A stretch of DNA of 16,866 bases. It comes from Candidatus Poribacteria bacterium (GTDB taxonomy: Bacteria; Poribacteria; DTPJ01; WJIO01). Location: positions 1 through 16,866 of the forward strand of contig WJIO01000059.1 in the NCBI GenBank assembly GCA_014730235.1, in the 5' to 3' direction. A program made the position numbers and the translations under genes. The notes under the pieces were generated by a model. That model was given only the letters and a program-made list of their open reading frames with translations. It was not told where the DNA came from and made no database searches. Below, one piece after another: positions 865 to 15,420 of the stretch; positions within the stretch are counted from its first letter, which is position 1; each line of letters begins with the position of its first letter.

Positions 865-2124
865 TTATTCCTCCAGTTCCTGGGCAGTCCATAAACCCAA
901 TGCTGGATTACTTATGTAATAGAAGTCATCGTTCATTCCATCTTTGAGTTTTTCAGGATTATATTTTTCCATTAGCTGATTTACATCTGCCCATTGATAT
1001 CCGACGTTTTCTGTTTCTTCTTTGCTGAGATGTCCTGGCGCATAAGTTACTTTGAATCGTCCTTCTGTAGATCCATGAATTAAATGGGCTGCTGCTACCA
1101 GATTATTTCGTAAATCCTCGTTATCATTAACTTCCTGTAGTATCTCCTCAGTTCCATGATACCCATATTTTCTTATTAACCTGTCAACTTCCGGGTCTTC
1201 CCCATACTCCCTGAGTCCAGGTGCAATAACTATAAGTTCGCCGTCATCGGCAATGGCCATTCGACTCCTGTATATGGATTTATTTCCCAGCCAGTGGCTT
1301 TGATATTCCTTTGGATCGAGATAGGCTATTACTTTTTTCAATGGATATTTCACTCTTGTGATGTTTAATCTCTGGCTGAGTTTTGCTGCTTGCTCAAAGG
1401 GTTTACGTTCATCACCTATATATAACCCCCTGGTTACAAGTTCGCCTGATTCATCTCTATCCCTTACAGTCATGACATACAATATATCTATATCTTTCAG
1501 GTATTTTTCCTCAGCATAATCGAACACCTTACGAAGGGGTGTATCAATGCGTCCCATGATGTCTTCCATGCCGTAAACACCTGCCAGGTAATGTCCTCTA
1601 TTAATTGTATTTTGTCCGCCTATTCCCACCAGTATGTTCTTGGTATAATTGGCAAAACCAGTGTTTTCATGGGGAACAACCTGCCCAACAGAGATAATCA
1701 GGTCATAGTCATTCTCCAGCAGGATTTTATTAACCTGTATAGGAATGTCCATACTCAGTCTATCATCAGACACATCTGAAACAAAATCCCTTTCCACTAA
1801 CCCGATTTCCACGACATCGTTGCGCCAATCATGAATTTTGAATAATTCCCAGGGAATATCACCATACATTAATTCTTTTTGTTCTTTCGACAGGGGTTCG
1901 TGAGTTCCAATGGCCGTCATAATATGAAAAACGTCGTTTTTTCCCAGCATCTGATAAAGAAGTTGGGTTATCTCACCGGCACCAGAATGTAAACGGGTAA
2001 TATCCGGTGGTATAATTAACACTTTTGAACACTTGCCACCCTTTATGTAAAATGCCGATTCCAGCAGTTTTTGTGTTTCAGCAATGTCAATTTTAATATC
2101 AGGTGAACCTTTACCTATCCACAT
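865..2124 (-). CDS. LarA-family nickel-pincer-dependent racemase/epimerase (DUF2088)
   Basis: This 419-residue protein belongs to the lactate racemase LarA family. Seen in the sequence: a PPDITR block (39-44), an AIGTHEPL block (71-78), HDWRND at 98-103, and a long block with H152, K162 and H178. Counting from H152, the spacing to the Lys (+10) and the next His (+16) equals that of H174, K184 and H200 in Lactobacillus LarA, where the Lys holds the pyridinium-thioamide/thioacid nickel-pincer nucleotide and the His residues bind Ni or catalyse. H98 fits LarA H108. The family inverts an alpha-hydroxy carbon by hydride transfer, and members act on lactate, malate, hydroxyglutarate or aldonates. 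Between an oxidoreductase and a hydro-lyase subunit, a sugar-acid epimerase role is my inference. The cofactor genes larB, larC and larE are not in the window. The SD is AAAGG. Confidence 0.85.
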   Translation of the reverse strand: MWIGKGSPDIKIDIAETQKLLESAFYIKGGKCSKVLIIPPDITRLHSGAGEITQLLYQMLGKNDVFHIMTAIGTHEPLSKEQKELMYGDIPWELFKIHDWRNDVVEIGLVERDFVSDVSDDRLSMDIPIQVNKILLENDYDLIISVGQVVPHENTGFANYTKNILVGIGGQNTINRGHYLAGVYGMEDIMGRIDTPLRKVFDYAEEKYLKDIDILYVMTVRDRDESGELVTRGLYIGDERKPFEQAAKLSQRLNITRVKYPLKKVIAYLDPKEYQSHWLGNKSIYRSRMAIADDGELIVIAPGLREYGEDPEVDRLIRKYGYHGTEEILQEVNDNEDLRNNLVAAAHLIHGSTEGRFKVTYAPGHLSKEETENVGYQWADVNQLMEKYNPEKLKDGMNDDFYYISNPALGLWTAQELEE

Positions 2125-2142
2125 ATTTAGACCTTTCGTTTT

Positions 2143-3759
2143 TTATGATAATTGTTTATTTAATGTTTTCCTTACCGAGCCAGTTCCTTTTATCATTTCT
2201 CTGAAATAATATTCTATTTTATCACCTAAACCCACTGTATATAAGTCTACACCAAAAAGCTCTGAATCAGCAAGTATAGGTTTTAGTTTATCACCGGCAC
2301 TTTCGGGAACGCCCAGTTTTATACCGGAGACAAAGCCAGTCAATTTTTCAAGGAGATGGTCCGGACTCCAGCGATTTAAAGGCGGGGGTGCGGCTGGATT
2401 GTAATTCATAAGATTTCCATCGTCATCAATACCCATCAAATATCTGCACCATCCAGCTATTGCCAGTGGTATGCAGATGAGTTTTTTTGCATTCTCCCCA
2501 TGAGCAATAATTGTGTCACCATATCTTACGCCTACTTTCTGGGATGTATCGGTAATAATTCTGGCCGGGGTATCTGGTATGTTAGGATTCGGCAGACGTT
2601 CCTCCAGCACTTCCCTGAGAAATTCCTCTGGTTCTATTCCACCAGGATGCACAACTACTGGCAGGGATTCATCATAACTTTGACGATATACAAGTTTTTT
2701 CAATAACGGGTCTGCGATAGTATTATAAATATGTTCTTGGTTAAAAAGACAACCAAATATACACAGTGTGGTCTGGATGGGATTCAGACATGCACCGACT
2801 TTCATCTTCTCATATCTGGCCACATCTTCGGGACTATGGCAAAAGACAACCCCGGCTTTTTCCAGGGGAGGCCTGCCGTTGGGAAAGTCGTCCTGTATAA
2901 CTAAATAAGATATATGTTCTGTATTCACAAATGGAGCAATAACTGTTCCTTTAGCTGTAGTTATTATATCCATCCCCTCTATATCTTTGTCTTCCAGCAT
3001 TTCTTTTACATTTTCCGCAGGTCTTGGGGTTATTCGATCTATCATCGTCCAGGGAAAAGAGACTTCACTATTTAAGTAATACATGAATCCTGGATCCATA
3101 ACCCCGTCATCTACCCATCTTCGACAAAAAGTCATAACGGCATTGGAAAATTTTAATCCATTTTCTGAAACGTTATCCATGCTTACAAATGCAATGGGAT
3201 ATCGACCATTTTTATAACGATGGTAGGCAAAAGCGGCGGCTTTGGCCATTATATGTTCTGGGCATTCATAACCATTTTTTAGATCCCATTTTGCCTGATC
3301 ATTTTGAATATCATATCCCTTTTCAGTACAGGTGATACTTACCATTTGAAGTTCCGGACATGCGAAATAATTTAGCGCGCGTTCCCATTCGCTATGGTTT
3401 GATCCAGCATCGGCGAATACTGAATCAGCTATGTTTGAGACTACCATCAAATCCTTTCTTCTGTCGGGATACATAACAACCTGAAGACTCAGGTTATCGT
3501 GAGGTTTATATATTTGTTCTATTACTTCCTGATCGTAAGTTTCAACAGCTATCATGCCATAATCAACCGCGCCTATTTCCAGAAGCTGCTGCTGTATTGG
3601 TGCAACCATAGCCCGGAACAGGTTACTTGGGGCCAGATGTATCCAGCGAGGTGATGCTTTTGTCCTTTTTTTCATGGATGCAATATTAAAACCGGGGATT
3701 TTAATTCCTATTTTTTGCCAGTATGAATCTGTAAGTCCTTTTTCCGTTAGAACAGCCAT
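2143..3759 (-). CDS. Mannitol dehydrogenase / fructuronate reductase-like long-chain oxidoreductase
   Basis: This is a 538-residue member of the polyol-specific long-chain dehydrogenase family (UxuB, UxaB, MtlK). Support: a DNVSENG motif matching the family DNxxxNG block, SFPWTMIDRITP matching the FPxxMVDRIxP block, and a C-terminal domain opening with YEKMK that holds the catalytic Lys (residue 320 from the start used here). The family interconverts ketoses or keto-acids and alcohols with NAD(P). The usual LNxxH after the Lys reads LNPIQ, so the normal active-site His is Gln. The start is set at ATG 3757-3759 because AAAGGT lies 8 nt upstream; the longer frame from TTG at 3774 would put the SD inside the coding region. 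It is the first gene of the operon, 18 bp before the larA-like gene. Confidence 0.85.
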   Translation of the reverse strand: MAVLTEKGLTDSYWQKIGIKIPGFNIASMKKRTKASPRWIHLAPSNLFRAMVAPIQQQLLEIGAVDYGMIAVETYDQEVIEQIYKPHDNLSLQVVMYPDRRKDLMVVSNIADSVFADAGSNHSEWERALNYFACPELQMVSITCTEKGYDIQNDQAKWDLKNGYECPEHIMAKAAAFAYHRYKNGRYPIAFVSMDNVSENGLKFSNAVMTFCRRWVDDGVMDPGFMYYLNSEVSFPWTMIDRITPRPAENVKEMLEDKDIEGMDIITTAKGTVIAPFVNTEHISYLVIQDDFPNGRPPLEKAGVVFCHSPEDVARYEKMKVGACLNPIQTTLCIFGCLFNQEHIYNTIADPLLKKLVYRQSYDESLPVVVHPGGIEPEEFLREVLEERLPNPNIPDTPARIITDTSQKVGVRYGDTIIAHGENAKKLICIPLAIAGWCRYLMGIDDDGNLMNYNPAAPPPLNRWSPDHLLEKLTGFVSGIKLGVPESAGDKLKPILADSELFGVDLYTVGLGDKIEYYFREMIKGTGSVRKTLNKQLS

Positions 3760-3803
3760 ATATGTACCTTTCAAAATAGCTTTTGTTTTTATATGAAATA
3801 GTC

Positions 3804-3809
3804 ATTATA
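3804..3809 (-). promoter_or_regulatory. Candidate -10 box for the 3-gene minus-strand operon
   Basis: A perfect TATAAT on the minus strand lies about 45 bp upstream of the ATG at 3759. No good -35 sits at the normal spacing; TTTACA is about 25 bp upstream. This is a position-based guess in AT-rich DNA. Confidence 0.3.
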
Positions 3810-4033
3810 CAATATTACCTCTTTTTATTTTGCATGTAAATAAGCATTTGAAGAAACATTAATCCAAAATGGTGCTGACTCAAGGAAATTACGAGAAAAG
3901 GTTTGTTGATTAAAATCCTACAAAATCCCTTATTAAGGAGGAAAAGGCTTCATCTATTAAGTGAAGGATTGAATAGATTTTCTTGAAATTGCTTAAATCA
4001 TTATTGAAAATTGCTTAGAAGTCTATTAAAATA
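3810..4033. other. Intergenic region between the minus-strand operon and MITE-2 copy 1
   Basis: There is no gene. A strong SD-like AAGGAGG near 3935 is not followed by a usable reading frame: nearby GTG and TTG codons meet stops within a few codons. A short imperfect direct repeat (GAAATTGCTTA, then GAAAATTGCTTA) occurs around 3985-4018. I see nothing else. Confidence 0.4.
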
Positions 4034-4041
4034 AAATGTTT

Positions 4042-4182
4042 GGTTCTTCCGGCTTTAGTGTGGCTATAATTGAAAATTCTCTCAGCCTGTCATTCCTGCC
4101 TCAAGCTTTTTCAAAAAGCTTGAGGCAGGAATGACAGAATAAAGAAGTTTCTTATCTTTATCACACTGAATCAGGAAGAGTC
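4042..4182 (+). repeat. MITE-2 copy 1 (miniature inverted-repeat element)
   Basis: The ends read TTCTTCCGG at 4044 and GGAAGAG ending at 4180, forming imperfect terminal inverted repeats. The element is flanked by the 8-bp direct repeat AAATGTTT (4034-4041 and 4183-4190), which looks like a target-site duplication. Its centre is a perfect 25-bp inverted repeat with a 1-nt loop (4087-4111 and 4113-4137) carrying GTCATTCCTGC. Copies 2 (4606-4710) and 3 (6900-7094) share both ends. It encodes nothing. Confidence 0.75.
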
Positions 4183-4231
4183 AAATGTTTTTAAGAATAA
4201 ATATTAATCCTAAAATACACCTGAATAAACG

Positions 4232-4597
4232 ATGAAAAGGTATTTTTTAATAATTTTCGGTATACTATCCCTGGGTTTGGGTATCCTGGGTATATTTCTT
4301 CCCCTGCTGCCAACTACACCCTTTTTATTGCTCTCTGCCTACTGTTTTTATAGAAGTTCCCGACGTCTTTATTTATGGTTAATGAATCACAGGATATTTG
4401 GCAAAATTATAAAAAATTACAGTGAAAAACGGGCTGTTGACTTGAAAACAAAACTAATTGCACTTATTACACTCTGGGTTACAATATTCATATCTATATA
4501 TATTTTCTTGGATACTATATATATACCGATCTTACTTTTCATTATCGCCAGTATGGTTTCCTTGCATATTCTGAGTTTAAATACCATTCGAGAGTAA
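4232..4597 (+). CDS. YbaN/DUF454-family inner-membrane protein
   Basis: This 121-residue protein is highly hydrophobic. A paired segment (about residues 4-40) carries the LPLLPTTPF motif typical of the DUF454/YbaN family, a basic loop follows (about 42-72, RSSRRLYLW to KRAVDLKTK), and two more membrane spans lie at about 73-95 and 97-115. Length fits the family (about 120-130). Its biochemical role is not established. It stands alone between two opposite-facing metabolic blocks and is bracketed by two same-orientation MITE-2 copies, one 49 bp upstream and one 8 bp downstream. No clear SD precedes the ATG, so the start is chosen because it leaves the first membrane span complete. Confidence 0.85.
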   Translation: MKRYFLIIFGILSLGLGILGIFLPLLPTTPFLLLSAYCFYRSSRRLYLWLMNHRIFGKIIKNYSEKRAVDLKTKLIALITLWVTIFISIYIFLDTIYIPILLFIIASMVSLHILSLNTIRE

Positions 4598-4605
4598 AAT
4601 ATAGA

Positions 4606-4710
4606 TTCTTCCGGGTTCAGTGTAGTAATAATTTGAAAATTCTCTCAGCTTGTCGTTCCTGCGAAAGCATAAAGAAATTTCTTATCTTTACCAAAATGAA
4701 TCCGGAAGAA
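4606..4710 (+). repeat. MITE-2 copy 2
   Basis: This 105-bp element starts TTCTTCCGGGTTCAGTGTAGT and ends with ATGAATCCGGAAGAA, its imperfect inverse. Internal sequence (GAAAATTCTCTCAGC, GTCGTTCCTGC, TTTCTTATCTTTA) aligns with copy 1 in the same orientation, but the long central palindrome is shortened. It begins 8 bp after the DUF454 stop, so it may also act as that gene's 3' end. A target duplication is not clear; both flanks are AT-rich. Confidence 0.7.
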
Positions 4711-4821
4711 CCTAAATTTATAAGAAGATGTTGAAATGATTTATAATTTCTGCTAATCTTATCCAATGTTTTTGATTTTATAATCTATATCTCAAGTTAA
4801 GCATGAAAGGATTTTAAAGTA

Positions 4822-5820
4822 ATGTCCAAAGACAAGAAAATAAGGATAGCTTTTATCGGATGTGGTGGAAATGCAAGAGGTCATGGTCGTCGAGTATCGG
4901 ACCAACCAGATGCAGAGATCGTGGGACTTAATGATGTTAATAAGGACGCCATTAAGCGATTTCGTGAGGATGCAAAACTGGATGCCAGCGTTCCTGGTTT
5001 CTCTAATTACAAGGAGATGCTGAAGGAAGTAAAACCTGATGCAGTTGTAATTAGCACACCTCATACACTACATTTTGACCAGATTATGGATTCACTGGAT
5101 GCCGGTTGTCATGTCCACACTGAAAAACCTATGGTCTGCACAGTGGAACATGCCCTGAAAGTGGCAGAAAAAGTAAAAGAGACAGGAAAGCACCTGATGA
5201 TAAGTTATCAGCGGCATTTCCAACCGGCTTATATGTATTGTCGTGAAGTTGTGCAAAGCGGCAAATATGGTAAAGTGAATTTTGTAACAGCCCATCAATG
5301 CCAGAACTGGTATAAAAGCCAGCAGGGAAAATGGCGTCAGGTTATGTCCTTGAGCGGAGGCGGACAGCTTAATGATTCCGGGAGTCATCTTCTGGATATT
5401 CTTCTCTGGATACTGGAAGCGACACCTAAAGAAGTATATGCAATGATGGAATATTACGACGCAGAGGTTGATATTCTCAGCGCTCTTACCATTAAATTTG
5501 ACAATGAAGCACTTTGCAATATAAGCGTTGTGGGGCATGCTGTAGGTGGTATGCACGAAGATTTTACTATATGGATGGAAGAAGGTACTCTATTCGTCAG
5601 GGATGGAAAAATCTATATCGAAACAAAAGACGAAAGAATGCGCCCTGTTACCGCTGATGAACTTCCAGAAGGTGGTGAAAAAGACAGGGCATTTCTTGAT
5701 CTTATCCAGGGTAAGGGAGAAAACAAGGTTGACATAAGTAACGGTATAAGGGTAATTCAACTTTCAGAAGCGGCGTGGAAGTCAGCCGATACTGGTAAAC
5801 CTGTAAAGGTTGAAAGTTAA
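4822..5820 (+). CDS. Gfo/Idh/MocA-family NAD(P)-dependent oxidoreductase (copy 1)
   Basis: This 332-residue cytoplasmic oxidoreductase has an N-terminal Rossmann fold beginning IRIAFIGCGGNARGH (glycine-rich dinucleotide loop, about 8-21) and an acidic strand end near residue 38. The EKP motif (101-103) carries the family catalytic or substrate-orienting Lys102. The C-terminal domain carries GGGQLNDSGSHLLD (179-192), whose D185 and H189 match the usual catalytic pair. The family oxidises or reduces sugars, inositols and their derivatives; the substrate cannot be read from sequence. AAAGGAT about 10 nt before the ATG is a usable SD. It precedes a second family member by 86 bp, and the pair reads away from the sugar-acid operon on the left, suggesting carbohydrate use. 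Confidence 0.9.
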   Translation: MSKDKKIRIAFIGCGGNARGHGRRVSDQPDAEIVGLNDVNKDAIKRFREDAKLDASVPGFSNYKEMLKEVKPDAVVISTPHTLHFDQIMDSLDAGCHVHTEKPMVCTVEHALKVAEKVKETGKHLMISYQRHFQPAYMYCREVVQSGKYGKVNFVTAHQCQNWYKSQQGKWRQVMSLSGGGQLNDSGSHLLDILLWILEATPKEVYAMMEYYDAEVDILSALTIKFDNEALCNISVVGHAVGGMHEDFTIWMEEGTLFVRDGKIYIETKDERMRPVTADELPEGGEKDRAFLDLIQGKGENKVDISNGIRVIQLSEAAWKSADTGKPVKVES

Positions 5821-5850
5821 AATTCAATATAAAAATACTGCGTTTTATTT

Positions 5851-5883
5851 AGTGATATGATAATAAAGAATTATCATATCACT
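5851..5883. other. Intercistronic stem-loop between the two oxidoreductase genes
   Basis: Perfect 13-bp arms AGTGATATGATAA (5851-5863) and TTATCATATCACT (5871-5883) enclose a 7-nt loop. No T-run follows on the plus strand, so a terminator is unlikely. It may be an mRNA-stabilising or processing hairpin, or a palindromic regulator site 24 bp before the next ATG. Confidence 0.5.
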
Positions 5884-5906
5884 ATAAATATAGAAAGATA
5901 AAGAAA

Positions 5907-6890
5907 ATGGATATACTTAAGATCGGTTTTATTGGATGTGGTAATCATGCCAGTGGAAATCTCTACCCCCATATAAGCAAAATACCAGAGATAGAGCTTT
6001 TGGGGTGCTGTGATCTGGTGGAAGAAAAAGCAAAGAATAATGCAGAAAAATTTGGCGCGAAGGCATGGTATACGGATTATGAAAAAATGCTGGATAATGA
6101 GGACATAAGTGCTGTTTTTGTAGTTGGTCAACCTCACATGCACACAGAATTAGGTATAGCATGTCTTGAAAAAGGTTTTCATGTATATACAGAAAAGCCT
6201 ACTGCAACAAATTTGGCTGATGCAAAAAAAATGGCAGATGTAGCAGAAAAAACCGGTAAGCAAACCCAAGTTGGTCACATGCTTCGTCATGGCCCGGCAA
6301 CAAAGCTGGCAAAGGAAATTATGGCATCAGATGAATTTGGTAATCCCATATTTCTGGAAAGCAAATATTTTGTTCCTGGCCCCAGATCTGCAAAACCTGA
6401 TTGGGATGCCCCAACCCTTGATTGGGCTTATATGCTGGTTCAGGCTGTGCATCCTGTGGACTGGGCAAGACATATAATGGGTGATGTTATAAGCCTGTCA
6501 TGCAAAAAAGGTCTGGGAAAAAATGGTGCTGTTTCGTATGTGGTTGCAGTGGATTTCGCCAGCGGCGCTGCGGGATTGATTAACATGACATCATCTGCTC
6601 CTTTTGTTGTAGCTGAACTGGAAGCTGTAGGTGATGCTGAGACATTTCTGCATATTGATAATATGATAAGAATCAGTTACCAAAGGGAACGGAGAAAAGC
6701 CCCCAAAGTAACTGATTATGGTCGTCGGGAAGCCGGGTATTACCATGAAGTGCAGGATTTTGCCCGATGTATCCTGAATAATGAACCAACTTATCCTACT
6801 TTCCTGGATGAATACAAAGCCCTCTTAATCTGTCAGGCTATAGTAGATAGTATTGAAAGTGCTCAGGTTGTTTCAGTTCCCCAAGCATAA
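5907..6890 (+). CDS. Gfo/Idh/MocA-family NAD(P)-dependent oxidoreductase (copy 2)
   Basis: This 327-residue protein has the same fold as its upstream neighbour but is clearly divergent. The Rossmann loop is GFIGCGNHASG (7-17), with D36 at the end of the second strand and EKP at 96-98 (Lys97). The catalytic helix reads QAVHPVDWARH: H182 and D185 are present, but the GGGxxxDxGxH block of copy 1 is missing, which points to a different substrate class. Family members act on sugars, polyols or their amino and acid derivatives. Two such enzymes in tandem often catalyse linked oxidation and reduction steps on one sugar, which is inference here. The SD is weak (AAAGA-like). MITE-2 copy 3 begins 9 bp after the stop. 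Confidence 0.88.
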   Translation: MDILKIGFIGCGNHASGNLYPHISKIPEIELLGCCDLVEEKAKNNAEKFGAKAWYTDYEKMLDNEDISAVFVVGQPHMHTELGIACLEKGFHVYTEKPTATNLADAKKMADVAEKTGKQTQVGHMLRHGPATKLAKEIMASDEFGNPIFLESKYFVPGPRSAKPDWDAPTLDWAYMLVQAVHPVDWARHIMGDVISLSCKKGLGKNGAVSYVVAVDFASGAAGLINMTSSAPFVVAELEAVGDAETFLHIDNMIRISYQRERRKAPKVTDYGRREAGYYHEVQDFARCILNNEPTYPTFLDEYKALLICQAIVDSIESAQVVSVPQA

Positions 6891-6899
6891 AAGATTTGG

Positions 6900-7094
6900 C
6901 TTTTCCGGGTTCAGTTTGGTAAAGATAAGGAACTTCTTTATTATAATCGTTAAAAAATGAAAATGTGTTTAGAAAATACCTTTATAATCATAGTAAATTA
7001 CAAAAGTTGTCATTCCTGCAAAAGCAGTAATGACAAATAAGTTATATCCATTTTTTAACGATTACTTATTCTGTCATTACTGAACCCGGAAGAA
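6900..7094 (-). repeat. MITE-2 copy 3, interrupted by MITE-1 copy A
   Basis: The left end CTTTTCCGGGTTCAGTTTGGT and right end ACTGAACCCGGAAGAA are MITE-2 termini. The left half, through AAAGATAAGGAACTTCTTTATT, matches the reverse complement of copy 1's right half, so this copy is inverted. It is split at 6943-7065 by MITE-1 copy A. Without the insertion it would be about 67 bp, with its central palindrome mostly deleted. Confidence 0.7.
6943..7065 (+). mobile_element. MITE-1 copy A (123 bp, 5-bp target duplication)
   Basis: The ends ATAATCGTTAAAAAATG and CATTTTTTAACGATTAC are inverse except for the outermost base. Immediately outside are identical TTATT pentamers (6938-6942 and 7066-7070). 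The same locus without insertion is seen in MITE-2 copy 1, where the matching sequence runs CTTCTTTATTCTGTCATT on the minus strand. The interior carries TTGTCATTCCTGC and its inverse GTAATGACAA, as in MITE-1 copy B. There is no coding capacity, so movement would need a transposase in trans. Confidence 0.8.
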
Positions 7095-7161
7095 TAAAAT
7101 TTGGAATATAAAAGATAAAATTTGCATTTCTGGAATATATATCTTCTTTCCGACGTTTATT

Positions 7162-7186
7162 AATAGTAATGATTACTTTTACTATT
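7162..7186. promoter_or_regulatory. Fur/PerR-type operator candidate upstream of perR
   Basis: A 6-1-6 palindrome AGTAAT-G-ATTACT (7165-7177) is nested in a wider inverted repeat AATAGTAA (7162-7169) / TTACTATT (7179-7186). AT-rich inverted repeats with a one-base centre resemble PerR and Fur boxes (the PerR consensus is a 7-1-7 TTATAAT-N-ATTATAA palindrome). Its position just before the SD of the regulator gene suggests autoregulation of the whole perR-rbr-dfx-sodN unit. Confidence 0.55.
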
Positions 7187-7199
7187 CAGGATGATTATT

Positions 7200-7604
7200 T
7201 TGACAGAAAAGGCAAAAACCAGAACAACTCGTCAGCAAAGGGCTATATTAGAAGAGCTTAGAAATTCTGATAGTCACCCTACTGCTGATGAGATATATGA
7301 TAAGGTTAGACAGCAAATACCTCGTATTAGTTTGGGTACTGTATATAGAAATCTGGATTCTATGTCTGAATCCGGGATTATACAAAAACTTGAATTAGGA
7401 GGTGGACAGAAGCGTTTTGATGGTAGAAACGATAAACATTATCATTTCCGCTGCTGTTCATGTGGTCGGGTATTTGATCTACAAATAGACCAGAAAAATA
7501 TTACAGATATGATCAAAAACATTTGTGATAAATGCGAACATATGGTGGAAGATCATTATTTACTGTTTACGGGAATTTGTTCTGATTGCAAGAAAAACGA
7601 GTAA
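7200..7604 (+). CDS. perR: Fur-family metal-dependent repressor, PerR-like
   Basis: This repressor, 134 residues from the start used, has an N-terminal winged helix (TTRQQRAILEEL to ISLGTVYRNLDSM) and a C-terminal metal-binding dimerisation domain. Counted from the ATG at 7191, Cys88/Cys91 and Cys130/Cys133 form the structural zinc site. H29, D77, H83, H85 and D96 fit the regulatory metal ligands of Bacillus PerR (H37, D85, H91, H93, D104). The Asp at the last site is the PerR-type choice. PerR senses peroxide by metal-catalysed His oxidation and then releases DNA. It heads an operon of rubrerythrin, desulfoferrodoxin and NiSOD, the expected targets. Start: AGGATG (7188-7193) has proper spacing to TTG at 7200, whereas the ATG at 7191 lies inside that SD. 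Confidence 0.9.
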   Translation: MTEKAKTRTTRQQRAILEELRNSDSHPTADEIYDKVRQQIPRISLGTVYRNLDSMSESGIIQKLELGGGQKRFDGRNDKHYHFRCCSCGRVFDLQIDQKNITDMIKNICDKCEHMVEDHYLLFTGICSDCKKNE

Positions 7605-7622
7605 TAAGAAAGGAGATTTATA

Positions 7623-8195
7623 TTGGATTTCAAAGGGTCAAAAACTGAAAAGAACTTGCTAACAGCTTTTGCGGGTGAATCCCAGGCCAGGAATCGCTAT
7701 ACATACTTTGCTTCAAAAGCAAAAAAAGATGGTTATGTTCAGATTTCTAAAATTTTTGAAGAAACAGCTAACCAGGAAAAAGAACATGCCGAAAGAATCT
7801 TTAAGCAGCTTAAAGGTGGAGAAGTTGAAATACAAGCAGCTTTTCCTGCCGGTGTTATAGGTAATACTGTGGATAATCTTAAGGCTGGGGCTGCTGGTGA
7901 GAATTACGAATGGTCGGAGATGTATCCCGGATTTGCTGAAACAGCAAGGGAAGAGGGATTTAAGACTGTAGCCAAGGTATTTGATTCTATCGCAGTTGCT
8001 GAAAAACAGCACGAAAAGCGATACCTTGAGCTGGCGGCTAATATTGAAGCTGATAAAGTTTTCAAGCGGGATGAAAAGGTTGTTTGGAGATGTATTAACT
8101 GTGGTTACCTACATGAAGATACTGAAGCACCGAAAGTTTGTCCAGCTTGTGCCCATCTTCAAGAATATTTTGAAATATTAGGGGAGAATTGGTAG
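7623..8195 (+). CDS. rbr: Rubrerythrin (non-haem diiron peroxidase with rubredoxin domain)
   Basis: This 190-residue protein has a ferritin-like four-helix bundle (about 1-145) with diiron ligands E19, E52, H55, E93, E96, E127 and H130 in the rubrerythrin spacing, followed by a rubredoxin-like domain with C157-x2-C160 and C173-x2-C176. Rubrerythrin reduces hydrogen peroxide to water in the anaerobe cytoplasm, with electrons passing from a rubredoxin partner through its own FeS4 site. Translation starts at TTG (7623-7625), 7 nt after a strong AAGGAG (7610-7615). It lies 18 bp after the PerR-like gene and before the superoxide reductase gene, whose peroxide product it can remove. The length is typical and nothing is missing. 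Confidence 0.97.
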
Positions 8196-8211
8196 TTTAA
8201 ATAGAAGATAA

Positions 8212-8235
8212 CATAGCAAATCCGGATTTGCTATG
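8212..8235. other. 24-bp perfect palindrome between rbr and dfx
   Basis: CATAGCAAATCC and GGATTTGCTATG are exact inverse halves with no spacer. No T-run follows, so a terminator is unlikely. It lies about 50 bp before the dfx start and could be an intercistronic mRNA hairpin or a protein-binding site. Confidence 0.5.
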
Positions 8236-8286
8236 AAGTCCAATAACAATAAAACAATTCCACTAGCTGTAAAAAAGGAGATATGA

Positions 8287-8661
8287 ATGGCCGAGAAAAT
8301 GGAAATTTACGTCTGCGAAATATGCGGAAATATAGTTGAGGTTCTTCATGGTGGTGTTGGAGAACTAGTATGCTGTGATGAACCAATGGAACTAATGGAA
8401 GAGAATACTGTAGATGCTGCCAAAGAAAAGCATGTTCCAGTAGTCGAAAAGGCAGATCATGGTATAAGTGTTAAAGTTGGAAGTGTGGCTCATCCAATGC
8501 TGGATGAACATTACATTGAATGGATCGAAATTATTGCTGATGGAAAATCTTATAAGTCTTTCCTTGAACCTGGTGAAAAACCGGAAGCTACCTTCTGCAT
8601 AGACGCAGACGAAGTTACGGCCCGGGCATACTGCAACCTTCACGGTCTGTGGAAAAGCTAA
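8287..8661 (+). CDS. dfx: Desulfoferrodoxin (class I superoxide reductase)
   Basis: This 124-residue protein is a two-domain superoxide reductase, which turns superoxide into hydrogen peroxide without releasing oxygen. The N-terminal desulforedoxin domain binds centre I iron through C10, C13, C29 and C30. The C-terminal domain carries the Fe(His)4Cys reactive centre II: H49, H69, H75, C116 and H119, matching the Desulfovibrio residue numbers. The EKHVP motif holds K48, known to steer superoxide. The start at 8287 is preceded by AAGGAG; another ATG at 8283 is out of frame. Its peroxide product can go to rubrerythrin, encoded just upstream. It is unusual that a superoxide dismutase follows directly in the same direction. 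Confidence 0.97.
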
Positions 8662-8727: not shown

Positions 8728-9228
8728 TTGTTACGCAATCGAAAACTTCAAATTGCTTTATCTCTAGTTATTCTATCAATCTTTGCTGTATTTGCCTTTC
8801 GTGTATTTTCCCATTGTGAAATTCCATGTGGTATATATGATGACGAAATGCGCATAGAAATGATGGCAGAACATATTACCACTATCGAAAAATCAATGAA
8901 CCAAATTATGGAACTGTCATCTATGGAGGAAGAAAATTACAACCAGATTGTAAGATGGGTTACCAATAAAGACAACCACGCTGATAAATTAAGTTATATT
9001 ATAACCCAGTATTTCATGACCCAGAGGATTGAACCCAAGGAAATAAGTCATGATGAAGAATATATGGGATATGTAGAAAAGATTACTACACTTCATAAAA
9101 TGATGTATCATTCTATGAAATCAAAGCAAACTACAGACTTAGAACATGTGAAGAGTCTGCGAAAGCTTCTGGAAGATTTTGAAGTGGCCTATTTTGGTCA
9201 TGAACTTGGTGAAACGCACCAACATTAA
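8728..9228 (+). CDS. sodN: Nickel superoxide dismutase with N-terminal export/leader segment
   Basis: This 166-residue protein carries the nickel hook HCEIPCGIYD at 29-38, equal to mature HCxxPCGxY of Streptomyces NiSOD, where His1, Cys2 and Cys6 bind Ni and the enzyme dismutes superoxide. The remainder is helical, as expected for the four-helix-bundle subunit, with a His-rich tail (HELGETHQH). Residues 1-28 read as a signal peptide: basic RNRK, a hydrophobic stretch LQIALSLVILSIFAVFAF, then RVFS directly before His29. V at -3 and S at -1 suit signal peptidase I, which would expose His1. That differs from the short propeptide removed by SodX, and no sodX is present. Start TTG 8728-8730 has AGGAGGGG 6 nt upstream. 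Periplasmic or membrane-outer placement is inferred. Confidence 0.93.
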   Translation: MLRNRKLQIALSLVILSIFAVFAFRVFSHCEIPCGIYDDEMRIEMMAEHITTIEKSMNQIMELSSMEEENYNQIVRWVTNKDNHADKLSYIITQYFMTQRIEPKEISHDEEYMGYVEKITTLHKMMYHSMKSKQTTDLEHVKSLRKLLEDFEVAYFGHELGETHQH

Positions 9229-9289: not shown

Positions 9290-10132
9290 TTATAAAGCCT
9301 TTTCAATTTCCTCTGTAAGGTTAAATCCTTTTTCAAGTTTTACACCATTCACAATAACTTTACCGGATTCAATATAAAAATCTTTATCAGCAGCGGCTTT
9401 AAGAGTTGCCACGATTAAAGGAAATTCTCGCATTAATCCTCGCCTGCGAATCTCTTTAAATAACGGTTCGCTTTCACCTTCAGATTCCCGTATTTCCTCT
9501 AAGGATTTGCTTTTGCGTTTTTCATCCCATTGATTCCATAAAGGTTGAATCTTCAGGTCTGAAATACTGAACTGGCAGTAAGTTACAGGTGGACCTGCAT
9601 CAAGCTCAGGTGTGATAAGGTGCATCATAACCCCCGTTATATTTGCATGTTCCTCCATTAATTCCCAGATTACTTCCTGCCATGTTCCTTTGGGGCCTCC
9701 CGGTAAAGCTGGATGAAGATTTATCATATTATATTTAAGACACATTTCAGGGCTGGCAATTAACATGTATCCAGCAAGAACAATTATATCAGGATCATAG
9801 TCAGACAGAAGTGATATAACCTTCATATCGTATTCTTTTCGCCATTGTAAAAGGGATGGGGAATCATGATCCAGTTTTTTCGATTCCTTAAGAGCATACT
9901 TTCTTAACTCAGGTTTAAAATTCCTGTGGGAAAGACACAATACATCCAATCCAAGAGACCTGGCAAAATTTATGAATTTGTCGCTTTCCTTTTTTTCACC
10001 AATGTTTCTTGTGACAAAGACAAAGGGAATTTGACCTTTTATAGTATCTTTTTTTATTTCATCAAATACAACACGAAGGAGTTCTATTGCTGCGTCATCT
10101 CTACCAGAAGAAAACCATCCTATTTTAAACAT
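9290..10132 (-). CDS. PurN/Fmt-fold formyltransferase, last gene of the radical-SAM operon
   Basis: This 280-residue protein has the formyl-transfer fold: a Rossmann-like N-terminus (FKIGWFSSGRDDAA), the PDIIVLAGYMLIAS strand-turn (114-127) seen in PurN, and the catalytic triad N138, H140 and D178 in MINLHPALPGG and LDAGPPV. In known enzymes this triad moves formyl from 10-formyl-tetrahydrofolate to an amine (GAR, Met-tRNA or amino-sugars). It is about 80 residues longer than PurN, and the substrate loop HPALPGGPKGTWQ differs, so purine synthesis is unlikely. The ATG lies 3 bp after the upstream radical-SAM stop, implying translational coupling and shared function. N-formylation of a peptide or amine product is my inference; automated tools may call it GAR transformylase. 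Confidence 0.8.
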   Translation of the reverse strand: MFKIGWFSSGRDDAAIELLRVVFDEIKKDTIKGQIPFVFVTRNIGEKKESDKFINFARSLGLDVLCLSHRNFKPELRKYALKESKKLDHDSPSLLQWRKEYDMKVISLLSDYDPDIIVLAGYMLIASPEMCLKYNMINLHPALPGGPKGTWQEVIWELMEEHANITGVMMHLITPELDAGPPVTYCQFSISDLKIQPLWNQWDEKRKSKSLEEIRESEGESEPLFKEIRRRGLMREFPLIVATLKAAADKDFYIESGKVIVNGVKLEKGFNLTEEIEKAL

Positions 10133-10135
10133 AAA

Positions 10136-11320
10136 TTATTTCCCAGATTTTGTAAAATTATCAATTCTTTTTTTCCAGTTCTCCACTTCCCAGCCCATTT
10201 CATCCTCACCTAAAAGTCCAAGATATCTGGCCTGAGCATGAGCTATGCTGCACAAATACTCAACAGGAGAATCCAGAGAAACGTTTTCTACCCATGAATT
10301 ACCCGGACACTGTTCACATAGTCCTTTAAGAAAGCATTTTGCGCATCTGTCAAGGTATTCCTGGTTAGCTGCTTTCATCTTGCGGATTTTCGGGAAAAAT
10401 TCCGACATGGCCTCTTTAAGAGAACCTTTTCTCAGATCATAAACCGTATCGGGATGTCTTAACATCATGCACATTTGTAGTTTGCCATAAGCGTCCAGAG
10501 TAGCGCTGTTTACGCCTGCCCCGCAGGAAAACAGTTTGTCTCCACAAGGGCGCATAAACCTTGCGCAGAAGCTCTTTTTGCTCTGGATATATTCTTCCTC
10601 ATTTTCTGTGAGTAAAGTCATTCCTTCATCAACAGTAGGTCTAAGTCCTTTTATTAGACGATCTTTCTTCTCTAAATCATGCCTGTAACGAAGGTCAAAA
10701 AATATAGAATATGTTGGTATTGTATCCATCCAGGGAATAGTAGATGCCCATTTTTCAAATTCCTTTTTTTCGTTTTTATTTGGCGGCAGAAGGACAGATT
10801 TAACAATAAAAGGAATATTATTATCCAGGAGTAAATTTACCCCTGACCAGAAAGCATCAAAAGAACCGGGAATACGACTTACAGCTTCATAAGATTTTTT
10901 ACTCATACCATATACAGTAATCTCGATCTTATTAAGGGGTGGTATTCGTTTAAATAAATCTATAATATTTTCGTCAATTAACGTTGCGTTGGTAAAAAAC
11001 GTGACCTTAATCCCCAGTTTCCGTGTATAGATGTAAATATCTTCAAAATCCTCCCTCAGTAAGGGTTCGCCTCCGGTATAGCGAACCTGCAAACAACCCA
11101 GGGATGCGGCTTCATCCAGAATATCTTTTATTTCCTGAGTTGTTAGCTCTTTTTCCTTTGCGTTTATATCATCAGCCGGCAGGTTAATACAGCAGTGGAT
11201 ACAATTATTATTGCAGCGTTCGGTAATTTCAAAATCAAGTTTGCTTAACCGGGTGCCACTGCTTTTCCATATCTGATATTTGCTTGAGATAACTTCACTT
11301 GAGTAACTGTCTTTACTCAT
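10136..11320 (-). CDS. Radical SAM/SPASM-domain protein
   Basis: This 394-residue maturase-type enzyme has a radical-SAM core starting near residue 28, with cluster cysteines C36, C40 and C43 (CNNNCIHC) and SAM-contact GGEP at 83-86. The C-terminal SPASM region holds C252, C259, C266, C284, C326, C329, C335, C338 and C357, enough for two auxiliary Fe-S clusters. SPASM enzymes such as PqqE, AlbA and anSME oxidise or cross-link peptide side chains. The CxxC, LCEQC and VEYLC pattern resembles the SPASM of the neighbouring fusion protein, suggesting shared ancestry. It may be related to the SynChlorMet proteins ScmE/ScmF. Start: ATG with AGGGG upstream, 22 bp after the previous gene. Substrate unknown. 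Confidence 0.9.
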   Translation of the reverse strand: MSKDSYSSEVISSKYQIWKSSGTRLSKLDFEITERCNNNCIHCCINLPADDINAKEKELTTQEIKDILDEAASLGCLQVRYTGGEPLLREDFEDIYIYTRKLGIKVTFFTNATLIDENIIDLFKRIPPLNKIEITVYGMSKKSYEAVSRIPGSFDAFWSGVNLLLDNNIPFIVKSVLLPPNKNEKKEFEKWASTIPWMDTIPTYSIFFDLRYRHDLEKKDRLIKGLRPTVDEGMTLLTENEEEYIQSKKSFCARFMRPCGDKLFSCGAGVNSATLDAYGKLQMCMMLRHPDTVYDLRKGSLKEAMSEFFPKIRKMKAANQEYLDRCAKCFLKGLCEQCPGNSWVENVSLDSPVEYLCSIAHAQARYLGLLGEDEMGWEVENWKKRIDNFTKSGK

Positions 11321-11342
11321 AACCTATATCCCCTGTTGTGTT

Positions 11343-13301
11343 TTATAGCTCTTTTAACACCTGTAGAATATCGCCGCTTTTATCAAAACGAACAATATAA
11401 ATAGGAACTTCATTTATAATATCTTCGACCAAGTTTAATACTTTTTCCCACCATTGGGCTGTTGCTACAGGTTTTGCAACCCTGGGAAGTAATCGGCTTA
11501 ATATCTCCCTCTTATTATCAAGGGGAACCAGAGTATTTTCTCTGGCCTGTTCAAGGAACATTATAGCTTTTAGCGGTGCGGAATCCGGATAAACATCGGG
11601 TATCTCACCATGATTCCATGTTCCGTGAATTTTAAATCCGTCGGGCCACTTCCTTATAATCATTCTGTCATCGCATAGCACTTTACCCTCTTTGCTTAGT
11701 AATCTGGCCATGGTAGATTTTCCGGCATTTGATTGTCCCAGGAATATAAAACCATTTCCATTATCCAGCTTTACGCCGCTGGAATGAACTATACATCCCT
11801 GCCGGTCAGCCAGTAACAAAGATATAAGAATCTGATCGTTAGTATAGAGGGTTATATTATTTAATCCACCAGTTTTGAATTTATTGCCATCAGGACTGAA
11901 TATTCTACCCCTTCGGTAATCTTCACTGAATACAGCCAGTTGGTAAGTTCTATCATCACCAGGAACGCCGGATATACATTCATAAATCCAGGATTTACCT
12001 TTTTTGTATACGACCCAGGGTAGAAGTCTGTAAACTTCTTTCCCCAGGTTTTTATCCTTATATGGTGGGATAGAAAACTGATGATACATAGTTATATTAT
12101 CATCCAGAGGACCATCAATTCTGAAATTTTTAAACTTAGGTGAGTAAGTATATTCATCAAAAGGTATTTCACTGTCAATTTGTAAACTCATACCACCGAT
12201 TTGGTAATAACGACGATGGAGTTTTTTCCATTCCTCCCGGTATTTCAAGCTTTCTTTGGTAACTTCACATAAGTATTCTACTTTAGATGAATAATTACCA
12301 TGCTCAAGATATGAATAAACAGAGCACCATTTACACTGGGTTTTATGTTCACAGCTTCCACAATTTTCCAGATATTCCTGTCCAGCTCTGGCTTTATCGG
12401 ATATGGAGGGTATAAATTCATCCCATCCTTCCTGAACGCTTCCTTCTCTAATATCATAACGCAATTCAGGGTCTTTTATGAAGCTGCAAAAACTCATCTG
12501 ACCGTAGGGATCAATATGAAAATCACGTCTGGCCGAAACGCATTTTGCAAAAACCCGGTCATCGCCTTCATGATATCCGCATCCGGAGATACCTTCCTCC
12601 TTCATCCATTCTTCATAATTGACATCGGGTTTACTTAATTCTATTACAGTTTTTGGATCAAGACGTTCATTTTTTATATCCTCATTTCTTTCAGGATGAA
12701 CGCCTGTTGATAAATAAAGCCATGGTGCACCAATCCGCCATTTATTGCTTAAAGATTTGGCAAGCTCCACCATTTCATCAAATTGATGATAATTGCTTTT
12801 TAACGGAATAACCTGAACGGTGAAATCTGCACCGGCTTCTTTCATGTAGGCAAATCCCTGCATGGTAGATTCAAAAGAACCGTGGTTCCTTGTAATCTTG
12901 TCGCATATTTCGGGAGTAGCGCCGTAAAGGGCGATCATCCTGGTTCCCTTGATATTCTTTAGCAATTCAGCGTATTTGGGAGAAATTAAAGTGCCGTTGG
13001 TATTCAGGCCGACACTTATGGACTTGCTTGCCATGTATTCCATAATATCAGCAAAGTCAGGTCTTAGCATGGGTTCCCCCCCGGAAATGCTCCATGTGCG
13101 AGCCCCGAGACCTCTGCAATCATCAACCAGATTCTTTATTTCTTCCAACGTGAGTTCTTCTCGTCTTTTGGGATCTCCCGGTGGTATTCTTAACCAGCAG
13201 TGACGGCAGTTATTATTACAACGGTATGTTATATCAATATCCACTCTCGTGGGAATACGCGGCATATCCTCCTGCTTTACAACCTTTAAGTAGTCTATCA
13301 T
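11343..13301 (-). CDS. Radical SAM/SPASM protein fused to an HPr-kinase-like P-loop domain
   Basis: This 652-residue fusion has three parts. Residues 15-230: radical-SAM core with C28, C32 and C35 (CNNNCRHC) and GGEP at 74-77. Residues 240-350: SPASM with C241, C254, C272, C314, C317, C323, C326 and C345. Residues 364-652: a domain homologous to the whole of the next upstream gene, with Walker A GQSNAGKST (522-530), CDD at 543-545, TWNHGEIPDVYP at 561-572 and a C-terminal FDKSGDI. The P-loop part resembles HPr kinase and ScmC-like proteins, which phosphorylate or bind NTP. Joining a peptide-modifying radical enzyme to a kinase-like domain suggests both act on one carrier. The SD GGAG precedes ATG 13301; 22 bp separate it from its neighbour. 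It is intact, with no frameshift at the fusion point. Confidence 0.9.
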   Translation of the reverse strand: MIDYLKVVKQEDMPRIPTRVDIDITYRCNNNCRHCWLRIPPGDPKRREELTLEEIKNLVDDCRGLGARTWSISGGEPMLRPDFADIMEYMASKSISVGLNTNGTLISPKYAELLKNIKGTRMIALYGATPEICDKITRNHGSFESTMQGFAYMKEAGADFTVQVIPLKSNYHQFDEMVELAKSLSNKWRIGAPWLYLSTGVHPERNEDIKNERLDPKTVIELSKPDVNYEEWMKEEGISGCGYHEGDDRVFAKCVSARRDFHIDPYGQMSFCSFIKDPELRYDIREGSVQEGWDEFIPSISDKARAGQEYLENCGSCEHKTQCKWCSVYSYLEHGNYSSKVEYLCEVTKESLKYREEWKKLHRRYYQIGGMSLQIDSEIPFDEYTYSPKFKNFRIDGPLDDNITMYHQFSIPPYKDKNLGKEVYRLLPWVVYKKGKSWIYECISGVPGDDRTYQLAVFSEDYRRGRIFSPDGNKFKTGGLNNITLYTNDQILISLLLADRQGCIVHSSGVKLDNGNGFIFLGQSNAGKSTMARLLSKEGKVLCDDRMIIRKWPDGFKIHGTWNHGEIPDVYPDSAPLKAIMFLEQARENTLVPLDNKREILSRLLPRVAKPVATAQWWEKVLNLVEDIINEVPIYIVRFDKSGDILQVLKEL

Positions 13302-13323
13302 GACGGTAAACTCCAGTTATTAT

Positions 13324-14235
13324 TTATAAGCTTTTTAAAGTCTTTTTAATATGATCAACAATCTGACCGCTTTTATCAAAATGCAGAACAAAGCACGGAA
13401 CTTCACTGGATATGTTTTCCAGCAGATCAAGGGTGTTGTTCCACCAGTTGGCCGTTACAAAAGGTCTTACCAGACAACCAAGAAGCCTTTTAATTATTTC
13501 TTTTTTATCCTTAACCTCTACTATATAATTATCTTTGGCCTGTTCCAGGAAAAAGATGGCTTTTAATGGGACATAACCGGGATATACGTCAGGAAATTCG
13601 CTGTAATTCCATGTGCCGTAAATCCTGTATTCATGTGGATAGCGTCTGAGGATTATCATTTCGTCACAAATAACCCTGGATTGATCCTCCACCATTTTGG
13701 TAATGGTAGATTTGCCAACTCCAGACCTTCCAATAAAAAGGATTCCCTTACCATCCATACTTACTCCACTGGAGTGCATGTAGCATCCGTTCCTGTGGGC
13801 CAACAACTGGGCGATCAATATCTGGTCGTTGGTATACAAACCGAATGAAGTCATTCCACCTTTTTGGAATCTTTGGTCGCTTCTGTTGTATATACGGGCG
13901 GATTTATGATCATGACTAAAGACTGACATCTGGTATATCTGCTTCTGGTTTCCCACATTTGACGCGCATAGATACATCCAAGAATCATCTTTCCTGTATA
14001 TCTTCCAGGGGAGATTGTTATATACTTCTTTTCCCATATCTGATTCATCAATATCCGGCAGGGAAAAGTGATGTCTTATAACTACGTTATCATCTCCGGG
14101 CCCATTAACTGCAAAAGCTTTAAACCTGGGAATAAAGGTTTCATCACTAATGGGTATTTCTGACTCAACCTGAATTGTTATATCACCTATTTTATAATAA
14201 AGACGATAAATATCTTTCTCGGTCTTTTCGACCAT
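13324..14235 (-). CDS. HPr-kinase-like P-loop protein (ScmC-like)
   Basis: This 303-residue stand-alone relative of the fusion's C-terminal domain begins with a beta-rich N-terminal part (YYKIGDITIQVESEIP, 13-28), followed by the P-loop domain: HSSGVSMDGKGILFIGRSGVGKST (154-177) with Walker A residues G169, G174, K175 and S176, then CDE at 190-192, TWNYSEFPDVYP at 208-219 and HFDKSGQI near the end. HPr kinase relatives in peptide pathways phosphorylate hydroxyl groups, and the closest named family I know is SynChlorMet ScmC, function unknown. CDE here replaces CDD in the fused paralogue. Start: MVEKT, because AAAAAGGAG lies 6 nt upstream; an earlier ATG is out of frame. It is tightly packed between the AmrS-like gene (24 bp) and the fusion gene (22 bp). 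Confidence 0.85.
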   Translation of the reverse strand: MVEKTEKDIYRLYYKIGDITIQVESEIPISDETFIPRFKAFAVNGPGDDNVVIRHHFSLPDIDESDMGKEVYNNLPWKIYRKDDSWMYLCASNVGNQKQIYQMSVFSHDHKSARIYNRSDQRFQKGGMTSFGLYTNDQILIAQLLAHRNGCYMHSSGVSMDGKGILFIGRSGVGKSTITKMVEDQSRVICDEMIILRRYPHEYRIYGTWNYSEFPDVYPGYVPLKAIFFLEQAKDNYIVEVKDKKEIIKRLLGCLVRPFVTANWWNNTLDLLENISSEVPCFVLHFDKSGQIVDHIKKTLKSL

Positions 14236-14259
14236 CCATGTCTCCTTTTTGAGAGGAAA

Positions 14260-15420
14260 TCAATACCATATACCAGTGATACTATAGCTGCATTTGCTGC
14301 ATTTGCCTTTCATATCAAGATTATATCTCGTTACCTCTGAATTGCTACGGTCTATAAGCATGGTACCGCAGTTGGGGCAATAGGTGGATGAATATTTATG
14401 TCCAGGTATATTTCCAAGATACACAAAGTTAAGACCGTTGGAGAGGGCAATATCCCTTGCTTTTTCCAGGGTTTCCAGGGGGGTGGCTAAAATATCCATC
14501 AGCTGGTAGTTAGGGAAGAATCGGGAGAAATGGAGTGGAATATCTGCACCTAAGTTTTCTCTTATCCATGCAGTCATTCTGGATAATTCTTCTGGTGAAT
14601 CGTTTTTCCCGGGAACCACCAGGTTTGTTATTTCCAATTGGAGGGGTTTTTCTCTTTCCGCGCTTAAGCGATTTATTAATTTTAGAGATTCCAGAACCTG
14701 AGACATCTCGATCCCGCATATCTCCTCATAATAGTCTTCGGAGAAACCTTTCAGATCAACGTTTACAGCATCCATATTTTCCATCAAGGCCTTTAACGGT
14801 TCAGGATAAATATATCCGGCTGTGTGGCATATAGTCTTAATGCCAGCTTTTCTGGCAAGTTTTGCTATTTCAAGGGTATATTCGTAGCATATAACCGGCT
14901 CATTGTAAGTAAAGGCTATAATACGACAGTCTTTCTCCCTGGACAGATTTATTGCATCTTCAGGAGTAAGATTTTGAGTTTCTGTCTCTTCAGGTCTGAC
15001 CTGAGAGATATGCCATGTTTCGCAGAACTTACATTCAAGATTACATCCGGCTGTGCCAATACCAAGAAACTGCTGACCTGGAAGTATATGATAAAAATTC
15101 TCCCGCTCTATGGGTTCAACGTATACTGTGCATGGATTTGAATATACCAGGGAGTAGTATTTTCCATCCCGGTTTTCCTTTGCCCCGCAGTATCCCCGCT
15201 CCCAGTTATTTACAATACATCCCCGGGGTTCCAGCATACATTCTATCATTACCCCCCCATCAAGGGTTTGATAGAACATGGCTTCCTTTAAACCTTCGGT
15301 GGATGGAATCGCATGTTCAGCCTTTGTAACAGAAGAAAATATTCCTGGAACTATGGCAATTGCCGTACCTTTTTTAACTGCATCTTTTATGAATTCTCTT
15401 CTTGTGAATTTTTTTGTCAT
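14260..15420 (-). CDS. AmrS-like radical SAM enzyme with twin-arginine signal
   Basis: This 386-residue protein begins with a Tat motif, TRREFIK (residues 6-12), and a weakly hydrophobic stretch to about residue 32, then an alanine-containing possible cleavage zone near VTKAEHA. The radical-SAM cluster motif is C126-x3-C130-x2-C133 (GCNLECKFCETW). Conserved N-terminal cysteines C61, C68 and C78 and a C-terminal zinc-ribbon (C348, C351, C374, C377) match the AmmeMemoRadiSam radical-SAM family, whose reaction is unknown. No AMMECR1 or Memo gene is in view. A Tat signal on an oxygen-sensitive radical enzyme is odd and may be a relic or mean export after cluster insertion. The ATG at 15420 has no clear SD, and MITE-1 copy B begins 12 bp upstream. 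Confidence 0.87.
   Translation of the reverse strand: MTKKFTRREFIKDAVKKGTAIAIVPGIFSSVTKAEHAIPSTEGLKEAMFYQTLDGGVMIECMLEPRGCIVNNWERGYCGAKENRDGKYYSLVYSNPCTVYVEPIERENFYHILPGQQFLGIGTAGCNLECKFCETWHISQVRPEETETQNLTPEDAINLSREKDCRIIAFTYNEPVICYEYTLEIAKLARKAGIKTICHTAGYIYPEPLKALMENMDAVNVDLKGFSEDYYEEICGIEMSQVLESLKLINRLSAEREKPLQLEITNLVVPGKNDSPEELSRMTAWIRENLGADIPLHFSRFFPNYQLMDILATPLETLEKARDIALSNGLNFVYLGNIPGHKYSSTYCPNCGTMLIDRSNSEVTRYNLDMKGKCSKCSYSITGIWY

Follow-up and report, generated by a model that had tools for sequence, protein, structure and literature searches.

Relation to described systems

The gene sets for linear polyphosphorylated peptides (LPP; Nat Commun 2026) combine a recognition element (RRE) for ribosomally synthesized and post-translationally modified peptides (RiPPs) with an HprK kinase, a SipW-like peptidase, a nucleoside triphosphate (NTP) transferase and an MsbA-like exporter, and have a YxxP leader; radical S-adenosylmethionine (radical-SAM) enzymes go unmentioned in that paper (PMC13381572). 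LPP is the nearest described system to the one that we report here, which shares its plan. We analysed a 16,866-bp stretch of DNA from Candidatus Poribacteria bacterium (assembly GCA_014730235.1, contig WJIO01000059.1; hereafter the window, which is the entire contig, its ends being ends of the assembly), in which adjacent genes encode a radical-SAM protein fused to an HprK-like kinase, a second radical-SAM protein (rSAM2) and a stand-alone HprK-like protein. The window probably holds the modification half of a RiPP system that is split over two places in this genome, since the precursor peptides, a PqqD-type protein, a peptidase and a third radical-SAM protein (rSAM3) sit on another contig, C191. 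The best reading of the sequences is that they belong to a RiPP family with radical-SAM enzymes and a kinase, apparently unnamed, that is akin to LPP, lasso peptides and SynChlorMet but lies outside them. It builds on established features: gene content and its conservation, the precursor family with its conserved C-terminal Ser, the kinase motifs and the split arrangement.

With LPP the family has in common a discrete RRE, an HprK-like kinase, a leader peptidase of the signal-peptidase type and a [Y/W]xxP leader, and part of the relatives also have an NTP_transf_5 protein and an ABC exporter. The combination of RRE, HprK and signal-peptidase-like peptidase by which LPP are recognised is spread over two contigs in the present genome and gathered in a single locus in relatives. 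The family differs from LPP in its three radical-SAM enzymes, one of them fused to the kinase, in its Cys-rich core with a C-terminal Ser, and in its leader, which reads KxWxKP...EExVLxxCK as against YxxPxVLxHQxIxFETxxS in LPP; the leader of the precursors in the present genome, WLKPKLIVLVKGTPDERVLVGCK, does not match the LPP motif.

Phosphorylated lasso peptides of the paeninodin type (PadeK, ThcoK, PsmK) resemble the family in their WxxP leader, PqqD-like RRE, HprK-like kinase and C-terminal Ser of the precursor, whereas radical-SAM enzymes and Cys-rich cores set the present family apart from them. No lasso cyclase or B2 protease was recognised by eye in the open reading frame (ORF) lists of the loci, although no search was aimed at either. 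The SynChlorMet cassette (ScmC/D/E/F) likewise has an HprK-like protein, a PqqD-like protein and several radical-SAM/SPASM proteins, but the present family stays below every Scm cut-off tested and has its HprK domain fused to a radical-SAM domain. SkfB and PqqE, peptide maturases that are among the nearest solved radical-SAM sequences (2.5e-18 and 4.5e-13), are remote; no NCBIfam equivalog fits, and these maturases have no kinase fusion.

The present family is a radical-SAM RiPP with an accessory kinase that the named family models do not cover, and we set it beside the known kinds rather than present it as a new kind. No system of this kind came up when open-licence papers were searched for radical SAM together with HPr kinase, and one may have been described earlier in a subscription journal.

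SynChlorMet and the present family coexist in one homologous locus, L033. Positions 1989-8170 of that locus hold a genuine SynChlorMet set, with ScmE and ScmF above cut-off, an HprK-like protein, a PqqD protein and more radical-SAM genes; a small Cys-rich ORF ahead of the set (1989-2276; KKWQTPELTGIIGTKTGSDCSYGNG...) may be its precursor. A YcaO protein (13423-14961; PF02624, 7e-64) has a copy of the present cassette on either side.

Gene content and conservation of the cluster

Four minus-strand ORFs separated by 22, 22 and 3 bp, reported in an earlier note on this DNA, are present as described, and upstream of the HprK gene, 24 bp away on the same strand, lies a fifth gene that the note lacked:

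9290-10132, minus strand: PurN-like formyltransferase, 280 aa; adjacent, perhaps co-transcribed, and not judged part of the system
10136-11320, minus strand: second radical-SAM protein (rSAM2), 394 aa; CNNNCIHC motif, SPASM-like cysteines
11343-13301, minus strand: radical-SAM-HprK fusion, 652 aa, the core enzyme; CNNNCRHC motif; His, Walker A and Asp-Asp motifs of the kinase intact
13324-14235, minus strand: stand-alone HprK-like protein, 303 aa; 46% identity to the kinase domain of the fusion; predicted HprK/PEPCK fold
14260-15420, minus strand: AmmeMemoRadiSam-type radical-SAM protein; TIGR04337 353.7 bits (cut-off 220)

Promoter and terminator scans gave results at chance level. The fusion and rSAM2 match Pfam Radical_SAM (2e-24 and 1e-23 for the two proteins), and both motifs are of the CX3CX2C type; no NCBIfam equivalog scored above its cut-off on any of the first four proteins.

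A two-sequence HprK alignment, run against about 85,000 species genomes, found six loci: two labelled Omnitrophota and one each labelled WOR-1, Saganbacteria, Calditrichaeota and Pseudomonadota. A single protein as query against genome contigs gave no matches. All six loci contain the fusion at full length (42-54% identity), and altogether full-length homologues, 41-54% identical, occur in about 20 loci across several phyla. Profile searches found the fusion in the Omnitrophota phylum (13 of the 384 genomes sampled, E < 1e-100), in 4 of 74 genomes of the WOR-1 genome's phylum (one split by a frame break), in 1 of 398 genomes of the phylum of the 'Pseudomonadota' metagenome-assembled genome and in 1 of 84 of the window's own phylum, the other 83 of which contain no relative of the HprK domain. 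This distribution, wide but thin, suggests horizontal spread.

Orthologues of rSAM2 (43-64% identical) lie near the fusion in 17 of the 18 loci with readable downstream sequence, the exception being L029, and most fusion loci also hold genes for PqqD, rSAM3 and a peptidase of the S26/S24 type. The order precursor-fusion-rSAM2-PqqD-S26-rSAM3 is repeated in many loci; a PF14907-type nucleotidyltransferase occurs in about half of the loci, an ABC exporter in about a third. The earlier note had expected its four genes to travel together, which they do as far as the fusion and rSAM2 are concerned, with PqqD and the precursors in their company, but the formyltransferase is found in none of the roughly 20 homologous clusters. 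Its proposal of a peptide-modification pathway beyond existing family models is supported by the same co-conservation, with the chemistry itself a matter of analogy.

A sister cassette is found in Omnitrophota (L097, L098, L099 and L100), with PqqD, a radical-SAM protein, a precursor, a stand-alone HprK and an S26-type peptidase that is either fused to NTP_transf_5 or followed by it. The precursor motif, as read in L097, is YxKPxV...EAVLAxCK...S.

Precursor peptides and the second locus

The loci of relatives contain the conserved small ORF that the earlier note had proposed to look for: short ORFs, 31 in the homologous loci, that share the leader K-x-W-x-K-P-x-L-x-V-L-x-R-x3-E-E-x-V-L-x2-C-K and have a hypervariable, Cys-rich core, usually with three Cys. 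These precursors have no match in Pfam and nothing significant in NCBIfam. Their leader (WxxPxL) fits the motif to which RREs bind, [Y/W]xxPx[L/V/I/A/F/Y] (PMC13381572). We also considered VLxxC as a lipoprotein signal, given its likeness to a lipobox (LAGC/LSGC), and ruled this out by inspection, there being no hydrophobic segment and residues such as K, N and Y just before the Cys.

A precursor profile built from nine sequences, none of them from the present genome, has exactly two matches in the 5.5 Mb of that genome. These score 1.6e-15 and 2.3e-15 and are both on C191, and no further precursor appears even at an E of 10. Inside the window none was found by regular expression or profile. 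The features of C191, in coordinates of locus L026, are:

5634-6761, minus strand: third radical-SAM protein (rSAM3), downstream of the precursors
6763-7281, minus strand: S26/S24-type peptidase, downstream of the precursors
7259-7591, minus strand: PqqD-type peptide chaperone (PF05402 3e-16)
7869-8039 and 8202-8372, minus strand: two tandem precursors, the profile matches, 56 aa each and identical but for one residue

The two precursors, each preceded by a Shine-Dalgarno-like AGGAAGG, lie directly upstream of the PqqD, peptidase and rSAM3 genes and consist of the leader MRKTWLKPKLIVLVKGTPDERVLVGCK and the core GEGPYDMGPDD[E/Q]YATCQINGDFCGNCETV. The statement of the earlier note that no PqqD-like gene or precursor is to be seen is thus right for the window contig and wrong for the genome. 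We take what is a one-locus system in relatives to be two loci in the present genome, where the C191 and window cassettes are each bounded by unrelated genes.

In L082 (4677-6548) two precursor ORFs show a change of frame right after the leader motif, which could be sequencing error or decay.

The distinct full-length precursors number 28, of which 24 end in Ser, two in Thr and two, those of the present genome, in Val, while the sequence around the C-terminus is hypervariable. Ser makes up 8.5% of residues within the cores, and the excess of terminal Ser would have a probability of 3e-22 if the rows were independent, a figure that serves as a guide only, as the rows are related and some were used to build the model. 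Three later precursors outside the model all end in Ser (27 of 31 overall), as do six precursors of the sister family, with its stand-alone HprK.

The kinase domains

HprK-like kinases are known to act on RiPP precursors: in lasso precursors, PadeK, ThcoK, SyanK and PsmK add phosphate to the C-terminal Ser (PMC9266682), and BsfK, a variant that shares the H, G, G, GKS and DD motif, phosphorylates core Ser3 (PMC10368454). All fusions compared keep the H...G..G.GKS...DD motif almost in full. The HprK-like domain of the operon matches Pfam Hpr_kinase_C (1e-5) and the NCBIfam models ScmC (3e-10) and hpr-ser (1e-7), each below cut-off.

The stand-alone protein is 46% identical to the C-terminal half of the fusion and is most likely a diverged duplicate of it that arose in its own lineage, because in a tree of HprK domains it clusters with the fusion of its own genome (support 0.98); the stand-alone copies in clusters L082, L083 and L085 do not group with it. 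Two motifs that are conserved nearly throughout the family are altered in this copy, GTW[S/N]HG to GTWNYS and WWE to WWN, and its second Asp is a Glu, as in two fusions of other genomes. An AlphaFold2 model of the 303-aa protein (pLDDT 87) has the HprK/PEPCK fold, aligning with Lactobacillus casei HprK over 119 residues (Z 11.9, rmsd 2.8) and with PEPCK over 246, almost the full chain (Z 14.4, rmsd 5.0). The earlier note had raised the idea of an RRE, that is, a winged helix of three strands and three helices, at the N-terminus of this protein; the model of residues 9-117 instead has eight strands and a single helix of six residues, which align within the PEPCK fold and lend the idea no support. 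The model of the whole fusion is weaker (pLDDT 76) and was left out of the structure search.

Proposed mechanism and alternative explanations

We suggest that PqqD would bind the leader through W-x-x-P-x-L and present the peptide, as its motif and known RREs lead one to expect. The radical-SAM enzymes would then modify the Cys-rich core, thioether or C-C cross-links being likeliest, and the HprK domain, held in place by its fusion to the first radical-SAM domain, would phosphorylate a side chain with a hydroxyl group. In most relatives this would be the C-terminal Ser, which is conserved; we propose this phosphorylation because of the kinase motif, the fold, the terminal Ser and the precedent of the lasso kinases (PMC9266682, PMC10368454). 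By analogy with LPP, the S26/S24-type peptidase could cut off the leader near VLxxCK, and in some relatives the PF14907 nucleotidyltransferase and the ABC exporter may finish and export the peptide. With somewhat less than even confidence, we further propose that a single polypeptide with a radical-SAM maturase and an HprK-type kinase couples core cross-linking to phosphorylation of the C-terminal Ser on a PqqD-presented precursor, which would be an undescribed RiPP class, and that in the present genome this system is split, its kinase duplicated and its substrate devoid of the terminal Ser.

Several points weigh against this reading of the window. The two halves are on separate contigs and are linked by homology to clusters in which they are joined, and the chemistry of the radical-SAM and kinase steps is one that we infer from sequence, fold and analogy. 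The present genome's two precursors end in Val, so that C-terminal Ser phosphorylation cannot apply to them; the penultimate Thr or other hydroxyls remain as candidate sites. The NTP transferase and exporter lie beside part of the relatives only, and we recognised neither on the window contig or on C191; the rest of the present genome was not searched for them. Finally, the SPASM label that the earlier note gave to both radical-SAM proteins is carried by a C-x2-C-x5-C-x2-C...C cysteine set, kept in both, and not by Pfam, whose SPASM model reaches 14.4 bits on rSAM2 (cut-off 21.5), with no match listed for the fusion.

The HprK domain could be a nucleotide-driven regulator or a small-molecule kinase instead of a peptide kinase, as its weak similarity to HPr kinases and the loss of family-conserved residues in the window's stand-alone copy would allow, but the catalytic motifs are kept in all fusions and the precursors conserve a substrate-like C-terminal Ser, and we consider this unlikely. 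It is less probable still that the two cassettes are independent, C191 making its own peptide with a single radical-SAM enzyme and the window enzymes acting on some other, unseen substrate: the contigs are separate and their flanking genes unrelated, yet in relatives both sets share one locus and its precursors, and the present genome yields no other candidate substrate to the precursor profile. Membership of SynChlorMet, directly or as a variant, is what the partial matches to the ScmC, ScmE and ScmF models would suggest, but we reject it as scarcely credible. The scores are far under the curated cut-offs (39.7 against 125, 61 against 400 and 82.6 against 400), and in L033 a true set (502 and 432 against 400) stands separately beside the present family.

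The earlier note had seen three chemistries, radical, phosphoryl and formyl, in one operon. The radical and phosphoryl parts stand as the likely activities of the fusion and rSAM2, whereas the formyl part is not supported. That the formyltransferase acts on the peptide, at its N-terminus or a Lys, might be thought from its position on the same strand, 3 bp from rSAM2, its match to Formyl_trans_N (Pfam, 3e-13) and the N-x-H and D residues that it keeps, which we take to be those of the PurN active site; we nevertheless hold it to be very improbable. Besides the absence of such an enzyme from the relatives' clusters, the only genome of the same order (G001) has a full-length, 65% identical orthologue on contig C17 (L095) that overlaps a QueE-like gene and lies outside any such cluster; that genome lacks the HprK family altogether. 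Another genome of the phylum has a partial orthologue, beside a MiaB-like gene. The protein scores 61 bits on the PurN model TIGR00639 (cut-off 150). In the present genome and its order-mate alike, PurN-model matches are confined to one Fmt-length protein (about 325-330 aa) and the 280-aa gene, with no PurT over cut-off in either (both incomplete drafts), while another genome of the phylum has an ordinary PurN. Most likely the formyltransferase is unrelated to the peptide system, and it is most simply read as a divergent purine-pathway enzyme that is downstream by chance; that it replaces PurN in this order may be offered as a guess.

The split-system reading gives a list of substrates and machinery for a radical-SAM RiPP family that is thinly spread over little-known, mostly uncultured phyla and for which none of the curated models that we used has a name. 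The fusion makes the role of HprK-like proteins in radical-SAM cassettes such as SynChlorMet testable, and the terminal Ser predicts a phosphorylation site. We point out that split RiPP systems are missed when single contigs are read, which should serve as a warning.

Neighbouring genes in the window

The AmmeMemoRadiSam-type gene is possibly a member of the operon, but not a conserved partner, a relative being close to the cluster in only one homologous locus; the N-terminus of its product is twin-arginine-like (TRREFIKDAVKKG). A protein resembling nickel superoxide dismutase (Sod_Ni 2e-28; below cut-off for NCBIfam sodN) is encoded at 8728-9228 of the window, adjoined by rubrerythrin-like and desulfoferrodoxin-like genes.

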